A stretch of 35,725 nucleotides of DNA, from IMG/VR virus record IMGVR_UViG_3300044993_000228, positions 1 to 35,725 of that record; one strand, written 5' to 3'. Under the pieces are notes generated by a model. That model did no database searches and was not told where the DNA came from. It saw only the letters and a program-made list of their open reading frames with translations. This stretch comes from a virus. Shown piece after piece: positions 33,885 to 35,558 of this stretch (position 1 is the stretch's first letter; each line of letters begins with the position of its first letter). The position numbers were made by a program, and so were the translations under genes.

Positions 33885-34067
33885 TCAGTGCCGTATCTTT
33901 GCGGCATTCGCCGCGCTGTCGGCGGCCAGACCGTCCGCCAGCGCGGACAGGTCGCGGCCGAGGCCCGCGACCATGCCGCAGCCGCCCTGCGCCATCGCGA
34001 GCAACAGGAAAAACAGGACGATGCCGAGAACCAACAGATACCCAGTGGTGCGCTTCCGATCGTTCAT
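33885..34067 (-). CDS. Small membrane protein or lipoprotein
   Basis: 60 residues from ATG 34067 with GGGAGA upstream. One hydrophobic helix (TTGYLLVLGIVLFFLLLAMA, residues 7-26) ending in QGGCG, which could be a lipobox, then an Ala/Asp-rich helix (LSALADGLAADSAANAAK). Downstream of the first pentamer-repeat element. Role unknown. Confidence 0.55.
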   Translation of the reverse strand: MNDRKRTTGYLLVLGIVLFFLLLAMAQGGCGMVAGLGRDLSALADGLAADSAANAAKIRH

Positions 34068-34112: not shown

Positions 34113-34140
34113 CCCGCCGACCCGTCTCCGTGTCGGCGGG
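34113..34140. other. Hairpin abutting the first GCCNN array
   Basis: CCCGCCGAC (34113-34121) pairs perfectly with GTCGGCGGG (34132-34140), ten-base loop. One T (34141), then the array of pentamers begins. The arrangement is the same as for the hairpin at 35443-35472. Confidence 0.75.
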
Positions 34141-34141
34141 T

Positions 34142-34371
34142 GCCTTGCCAAGCCCTGCCACGTCCCGCCTCGCCAAGCCTTGCCGAGCCCAGCCGCGCCG
34201 CGCCTCGCCCGGCCTTGCCACACCTCGCCCGGCCTTGCCACGCCACGCCCTGCCTCGCCAAGCCTGGCCCCGCCACGCCTAGCCCTGCCTCGCCAAGCCT
34301 GGCCCCGCCACGCCTAGCCCTGCCGAGCCTTGTCTGGCCACGCCACGCCACGCCCCGCCCTGCCTGGCCAC
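34142..34371. repeat. Array of 46 GCCNN pentamers
   Basis: Read from 34142 in fives, 43 of 46 units start with GCC; the exceptions (GTCCC, ACCTC, GTCTG) each differ by one transition. The last two bases of each unit take at least twelve of the sixteen possible pairs. A 35-bp block (34252-34286) is exactly repeated at 34287-34321. It starts immediately after the stop of the gene at 34375 and is not a plausible protein. On the coding strand it is (NNGGC)n, with GG every five bases. Confidence 0.85.
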
Positions 34372-34374
34372 GGC

Positions 34375-34995
34375 TTATTCGAGCGCCTTCACGCCGCTGC
34401 GAACGACCTGAAACTTGCCGTAGGACGGGCGGAAGTCGCAGACGCCGACAAACATTCCGGCGTAGACGGCCAGATCGTGCATCAGTTCAGGACTGATGTA
34501 CTGCGGTTGCGTCACGCAGAACGTGAACGTCGCCTCCCAACCCTTGAGCATCGCGGGCCGACACCGCGTCACGCCGTTGCGCTGCACCTGCACGCGACAG
34601 CGGTGTTCGTAGTCCCACGTCGTCCTGCCCAGCGGCGCGTAGCGCTCATGGCAGGTGATCGCCGCGCTGGCGAGGTCGCGCAGGCTCTTGCGCGGCGAGC
34701 GCGGGTCCTGCCTGGACTTCGCCGCGCCGATCATGGCCTGCCGCATGTTCTCGCACGGGATCGCGAGCACGCCGTGCTCGTCGCGGTACACGTACGACTC
34801 GATGTTGTCGCCCTTCTTGGCCTTCGATCCCTTGGCCGCGGCGGCCTTCTCCGCGATCGCCTCGCAGTTCCAGCCGTGGAACAGCAGATCGGCGATGCCG
34901 CGCGCCGTGAACTCGAAGATGTAGGGGACGCCAGCCACGATGTCCGGCTCCGCTCCGTTGGTCACGTCCGGTCCGATCAACGTTGCGCTCTTCAT
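34375..34995 (-). CDS. Conserved-looking phage protein of unknown function
   Basis: 206 residues. Ends RPAMLKGWEATFTFCVTQ, then AVYAGMFVGVCDFRPSYG and KFQVV, an arrangement ('RP.F..W...f.v', 'AG...G.GD.RP..G.F.V') I have seen in uncharacterised phage proteins close to recombination genes. N-terminal part is a beta-rich domain (PYIFEFTARGIADLLFHG); a Lys/Ala-rich loop (EKAAAAKGSKAKKGD) splits it. A ribosome site AAAGGAG precedes the start. Assignment to a named family is not possible from the sequence alone. Confidence 0.65.
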   Translation of the reverse strand: MKSATLIGPDVTNGAEPDIVAGVPYIFEFTARGIADLLFHGWNCEAIAEKAAAAKGSKAKKGDNIESYVYRDEHGVLAIPCENMRQAMIGAAKSRQDPRSPRKSLRDLASAAITCHERYAPLGRTTWDYEHRCRVQVQRNGVTRCRPAMLKGWEATFTFCVTQPQYISPELMHDLAVYAGMFVGVCDFRPSYGKFQVVRSGVKALE

Positions 34996-35115: not shown

Positions 35116-35421
35116 TTATCTCCTGTGCTGCTTTGACTCGTGATCAATCTCGACGTACCCACAGTGATCGCACGCCCACGCTGGCGGCGCGTACGGCGCG
35201 CCGCCCATCGGGCATTCCCACGTCGGCGGATCGCCGGGGTCGCCTTCGTCGTATGTCAACGGCTCGCCGCAGTGTGGGCACGCGCGAGCGTGACCGCCGA
35301 ATCTGTCGGCGTCGGCGCGCTCCATCACGGCCAGTACGTGCGCCGCGTAACGCGCTTGCGCCGACCTGATCTGTGCCATGTCTTGTTCCGTGATCGCACC
35401 TTCATATTTTTGGTCGGTCAC
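35116..35421 (-). CDS. Small zinc-ribbon protein
   Basis: 101 residues from GTG 35421 with AAAGGAG upstream. Helical N-terminus (EQDMAQIRSAQARYAAHVLA) followed by a four-cysteine ribbon: ACPHCGEPLTYDEG, WECPMGG and WACDHCGYVEI, giving CxxC...C...CxxC. Metal-binding adaptor or DNA-binding protein; not named. Downstream of the second repeat-hairpin element. Confidence 0.7.
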   Translation of the reverse strand: MTDQKYEGAITEQDMAQIRSAQARYAAHVLAVMERADADRFGGHARACPHCGEPLTYDEGDPGDPPTWECPMGGAPYAPPAWACDHCGYVEIDHESKQHRR

Positions 35422-35442
35422 AATGTGCTCCTTTCTTCAAAT

Positions 35443-35472
35443 CCCGATCGGTTCGTTTCCGAACCGATCGGG
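35443..35472. other. Perfect 13-bp hairpin abutting the second GCCNN array
   Basis: CCCGATCGGTTCG (35443-35455) pairs with CGAACCGATCGGG (35460-35472) around TTTC; in the coding-strand RNA the loop is GAAA, a GNRA tetraloop. One T (35473) then the array. It lies 22 bases before the start of the zinc-ribbon gene. Confidence 0.8.
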
Positions 35473-35473
35473 T

Positions 35474-35558
35474 GCCATGCCGTGCCGCGCCACGCCTCGC
35501 CAGGCCAAGCCCGGCCCCGCCAAGCCGAGCCCAGCCCGGCCCAGCCCAGCCAAGCCAC
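35474..35558. repeat. Array of 17 GCCNN pentamers
   Basis: Seventeen consecutive pentamers all starting with GCC; the final two bases take eleven different pairs, including AT, GT and AG, not seen in the first array. Same order as the first element: hairpin, T, array. Together the two arrays use fifteen of the sixteen possible NN pairs, only GG being absent. Confidence 0.85.

Follow-up and report, generated by a model that had tools for sequence, protein, structure and literature searches.

A candidate VIPR guide RNA gene with a hairpin tail beside a Cas7-like protein gene in an uncultivated tailed phage

We found that the element at 35443–35558, a GCCNN pentamer array set one base from a hairpin, is very probably (we put the probability at about 0.93) a vrRNA (guide RNA) gene and, with a second one, belongs to a VIPR system carried by the phage, the Vipr protein of which is encoded at 34375–34995 (Table 1). 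VIPR (Viral Interference Programmable Repeat) was described in an April 2026 preprint as a proposed CRISPR forerunner, in which a phage-borne ancestral RAMP protein, Vipr, is accompanied by vrRNAs of GGY/NN pentamers with a structured 3′ tail, encoded in arrays flanking vipr, and in which competing phages are repressed through NN pairs that read double-stranded DNA while passing over one base (PMC13142463). Our assignment rests on architecture, protein family and fold, orientation, co-occurrence and the one-nucleotide-skip rule in sibling phages. The window, that is the whole stretch of 35,725 nucleotides analysed, is a tailed-phage genome fragment with terminase, Mu-like portal, capsid E, DEAD helicase and exonuclease genes on the − strand, and the neighbours of the arrays and vipr are a zinc-ribbon protein and a PD-(D/E)XK exonuclease. 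Elsewhere in the window, at 10–816, a 90-bp unit is repeated in tandem about nine times inside an ORF at 3–1070.

On the + strand, the element begins with a 13-bp hairpin, CCCGATCGGTTCG-TTTC-CGAACCGATCGGG, followed by a T (35473) and by 17 pentamers, all of them GCCNN; given the GCC frequency of the window, the chance of seventeen in-register GCCs is about 3e-23. The other copy is likewise a hairpin, a T (34141) and an array, here of 46 units, 43 with GCC and one with ACC (GGU on the RNA), which brings the fit to GGY to 44/46. Together, the two arrays use 15 of the 16 NN pairs, GG alone being absent. On the − strand, which carries the genes, both copies read (NNGGC)n, A, hairpin, with GAAA and GAGA loops that are both GNRA, the GAAA loop of the first being such on this strand only. 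RNA folding gave −26.5 kcal/mol for the first hairpin (z = −6.8, with 0 of 200 shuffles equally stable) and z = −5.0 for the second, whose sequence is unlike that of the first. The preliminary description of this DNA had reported 17 perfect GCC pentamers one base after a hairpin, a 13-bp stem with a GNRA loop, hairpins differing in sequence between the copies, fifteen NN pairs in use with GG lacking, and an mRNA order of array before hairpin, and all of these observations were borne out. Since GCCNN reads as NNGGC on the opposite strand and the hairpin corresponds to the tail, the element fits VIPR, with GGY/NN pentamers, hypervariable NN, the strand of vipr and a position flanking it. Rfam covariance models at gathering thresholds had no match in the window.

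Table 1. Features of the predicted VIPR locus in the window.
Feature	Position	Strand	Details
vrRNA-2 guide tract	35474..35558	−	17 x NNGGC on RNA strand
vrRNA-2 3′ tail hairpin	35443..35472	−	13 bp, GAAA tetraloop, one A after guide tract
Ribosome-binding site of zinc-ribbon gene	35428..35434	−	AAAGGAG
Small zinc-ribbon protein, 101 aa, GTG start	35116..35421	−	between vrRNA-2 and vipr
vipr gene, RAMP (Cas7-like) protein, 206 aa, phrog_4652	34375..34995	−	
vrRNA-1 guide tract	34142..34371	−	46 units, 44 GGY
vrRNA-1 3′ tail hairpin	34113..34140	−	9 bp + mismatch + 2 bp, GAGA tetraloop
Small ORF, 60 aa, hydrophobic N-terminus, after vrRNA-1	33885..34067	−	

The protein linked to these arrays was identified through its family. 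When the ORFs of 124 array contigs were clustered, a single family of ~200 aa dominated, present in 84 of the contigs and including the vipr gene of the window, with the runner-up family in 21. No family in Pfam or NCBIfam describes the protein; the profile of its own family matches PDB 36pp_D, 'SUSP1 Vipr protein' (E = 5e-41), and an AF2 model (pLDDT 88) has type VII Cas7 and Csm3 as its best PDB folds in Foldseek. Because the profile matches SUSP1 Vipr and the predicted fold is Cas7/Csm3-like, we consider array and protein together to be a VIPR system, the protein being, by profile and model, a compact single-domain RAMP homologous to SUSP1 Vipr. No other cas-like match was found among 10 window proteins scanned. 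The family was detected in 86 of 120 array contigs (among the matches listed), 1 of 39 control contigs carrying the motif CCGNN and 0 of 76 arbitrary viral contigs, and the sole positive control contig also carries an array. Arrays often lie no more than tens of bases from the gene, others within about 0.5–0.7 kb, and about 30% of array contigs have no detected vipr gene. A search of viral contigs with the single Vipr protein of the window returned no relatives; a search with a four-sequence alignment returned 159, of which 80 were kept, chosen by protein alone. Together with the window and phage DSL-LC04, these made 82 loci, 57 with diverse GGY arrays and 25 without a detected array, and in the relatives selected in this way 127 arrays lay on the gene strand vs 1 antisense. 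Both the array contigs without vipr and the loci without an array may be due to fragmentary contigs or to motifs that have diverged.

The arrays form a family of their own. Nine consecutive GCCNN units occurred in at least 120 viral contigs, with at least five distinct NN (of eight counted) in 111 of the 120 among the matches listed, vs 41 contigs in the whole viral collection for the composition-matched control CCGNN, none with more than four distinct NN of eight. Over 373 diverse arrays, NN entropy was 3.89 of 4 bits and neighbouring units were almost independent, so that slippage does not explain the arrays. Where the neighbouring genes agree in direction (84 contigs), GGC lies on the gene strand in 77 vs 7. 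That the arrays are a microsatellite or a recombination repeat and guide nothing, as a 7-unit duplication in the 46-unit array and the widely variable array lengths might suggest, is therefore extremely unlikely in the face of near-random NN pairs, of the strand and gene-linkage biases and of a reversed motif that gives low-diversity repeats only. The earlier view that the element is functional holds, and it is very probably a functional RNA. In bacterial genomes, GCCNN matches were mostly low-diversity repeats, and the 8 of 119 that were diverse lay on metagenome-derived contigs. Diverse arrays were present in L155, L160, L254, L264 and L255 (a Lokiarchaeota MAG contig), whose bins together comprise an archaeon, Fibrobacteres, Desulfobulbaceae, Verrucomicrobia and Bacteroidales; a Vipr-family gene was present in L155, L255 and L264 and was not found in L160 and L254. 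In L036, L048, L049 and L054, and in L032, L047, L050 and L052, constant linkers particular to each contig (GAAC, CTCCTT, GTACCTT, TGCGGT), or else a shift of phase by one base at GCCTGCC, divide the arrays into blocks of ~10 units, and these are perhaps tandem or staggered vrRNAs.

Structured 3′ tails, which both vrRNAs of the window carry, recur in its relatives. In the clade of the window, the density of GNRA hairpins at 10–30 nt 3′ of array ends was 38-fold that found elsewhere, and 17 different sequences occur among them; as the hairpins counted had been selected for pairing, it is their density and not their pairing fraction that constitutes the evidence. At locus L422, each of five arrays is followed by a GAAA hairpin, and the five hairpins differ in sequence. 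A hairpin of at least 10 bp starting within 12 nt followed 37% of clade arrays vs 17.5% in shuffles. The proposal that the architecture is conserved rather than the sequence thus stands for part of the clade, while the hairpin is not universal and array tails differ in other clades; arrays that lack hairpins at random, which had been named as grounds for abandoning the proposal, do in part occur across the whole family, against a clear enrichment of strong hairpins. In L033, L045, L053, L101 and L134, tails start with AAACACA and continue into a hairpin, with GGAAAC or GGCAAC loops in some.

TRAP reads triplets spaced 5 nt, and the preliminary description had placed the ribosome site of a small gene after the array and hairpin. 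As a cis-acting leader, array and hairpin would regulate or stabilise the mRNA of that gene (TRAP-like attenuator, terminator or stabiliser), in keeping with the 5-nt spacing of the triplets and a hairpin directly upstream of the ribosome site. However, vipr is the gene linked to the arrays, and no homologue of the downstream zinc-ribbon gene was seen among the sibling loci; the NN pairs are close to random and high in entropy; guides from sibling phages find matches in the DNA of other phages; and neither hairpin was listed by a terminator scan. A leader is thus very unlikely, and the element most likely serves the Cas7-like protein encoded next to it as a guide RNA. A TRAP-like regulator, the first idea raised by the spacing, was dropped, the linked protein being a Cas7-fold Vipr. 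The zinc-ribbon protein is a possible VIPR accessory (vap). That the array might itself fold into a functional duplex could be argued from the stability of the 119-nt element (−80.9 kcal/mol, z = −7.0 vs dinucleotide shuffles), but shuffles that keep GGC fixed and reorder NN give z = −0.1 for the 17-unit array and −0.7 for the 46-unit array, and other arrays scatter around 0. Since NN-only shuffles leave z near 0, the stability comes from the GGC frame, and a structured RNA of this kind has next to no likelihood. The informative part of the array is its NN dinucleotides, not GCC.

Consistently with a guide function, guides of sibling phages read with a 1-nt skip gave 60 nine-unit matches at ≥17/18, vs 6 with skip 0, 2 with skip 2, 4 with reversed order and 2 when shuffled, the 60 deriving from 9 guides and including related target loci, hence fewer than 60 independent events. 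Loci fetched with the window's own guides, for which the test would be circular, are left out of these counts. The skipped base was codon position 3 (wobble) in 55 of the 60. Skip-3 matches are probably residual unmasked array sequence. An earlier test of 391 arrays against 2.4 Mb gave no enrichment, the signal appearing only with the window's own clade and its sibling phages. No target was found for the window's own guides, IMG/VR matches to their 8-unit words not extending beyond chance. The targeted ORFs match helicase, DUF669 ssDNA-binding and vipr genes in size and position, the helicase cluster and the DUF669 gene of L348 being identified directly by family results and the other targets assigned by size and position. 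Predicted natural 1-nt-skip targets include L348:3652–3678 for the guide at L350:4629–4673, and several loci for guides of L358, L361, L367 and L370. By sequence, these guides match conserved genes of related phages, which lends support to possible warfare between related phages.

The locus resembles that of Escherichia phage SUSP1 (PMC13142463; PDB 36pp) in its phage-borne homologous RAMP protein, in vrRNAs that flank vipr, in GGY/NN pentamer RNAs followed by a structured 3′ tail and in 1-nt-skip targets, seen here in sibling phages. In SUSP1, a single vrRNA lies upstream of vipr and three more lie downstream, the repeats number 9–16, and the tail, for which a pseudoknot is predicted, does not vary; in the window, vipr has one vrRNA on either side, of 17 and 46 repeats, and each ends in a simple GNRA hairpin whose sequence is unlike that of the other copy. 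The similarity of the two Vipr proteins is remote (single-sequence E = 0.065). The preprint reports vrRNAs of 9–16 repeats and seven VIPR types with variable architectures (PMC13142463); both window arrays exceed that range, which is a reported one rather than a strict definition, and 40% of arrays in the clade have more than 16 units. The only Vipr relative in the annotated phage collection is phage DSL-LC04 (OR003939.1), which has a 51–53% identical Vipr and whose last GGY array leads, through one T and a CCCC...GGGG hairpin, to a ribosome site and then vipr. Unlike the window, it has three arrays (20, 11 and 10 units) rich in GGU and a T-run after the last hairpin. Its vipr (L346, 4995–5612) is annotated as a helix-turn-helix transcriptional regulator, with no annotated feature for the vrRNA arrays, and its 11-unit array (L346:4804–4885) is flanked by an inverted repeat, TTCTTAGTGGGG...CCCCACTAAGAA. 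Class 1 CRISPR-Cas effectors (Cas7, Csm3) share the fold (AF2, Foldseek) and are RNA-guided complexes of repeated RAMP subunits; in contrast, the locus has no repeat-spacer array, and its guide information would lie in pentamer NN with non-contiguous pairing. Membership of class 1 was set aside, GCCNN pentamers taking the place of repeat-spacer units.

In the mechanism that we propose, transcription of the − strand would yield (NNGGC)17-A-hairpin, which would be processed and bound by copies of the Cas7-like Vipr, one per pentamer, coating the vrRNA. GGY would be the scaffold held by Vipr, each exposed NN pair would read double-stranded DNA and pass over one base of the target, and the GNRA-capped hairpin would serve as the 3′ tail ending or capping the vrRNA. 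Judging from SUSP1, whose system has been tested, this binding would lead to the repression of genes in rival phages or satellites, among which the targets of this phage would be expected. VIPR became public only in 2026, and the window adds a new copy, recognised from sequence alone in an uncultivated phage clade; the tail and guide-length features of this clade are possibly new. The clade might, tentatively, be a distinct VIPR variant, in which each vrRNA has a sequence-divergent GNRA tail recognised by its shape and not its sequence, and tracts of up to at least 46 pentamers with no internal tails would give very long guides or be processed into several. With its simple, shape-conserved tail and unusually long guide tracts, the clade would probe guide length and tail recognition in VIPR.
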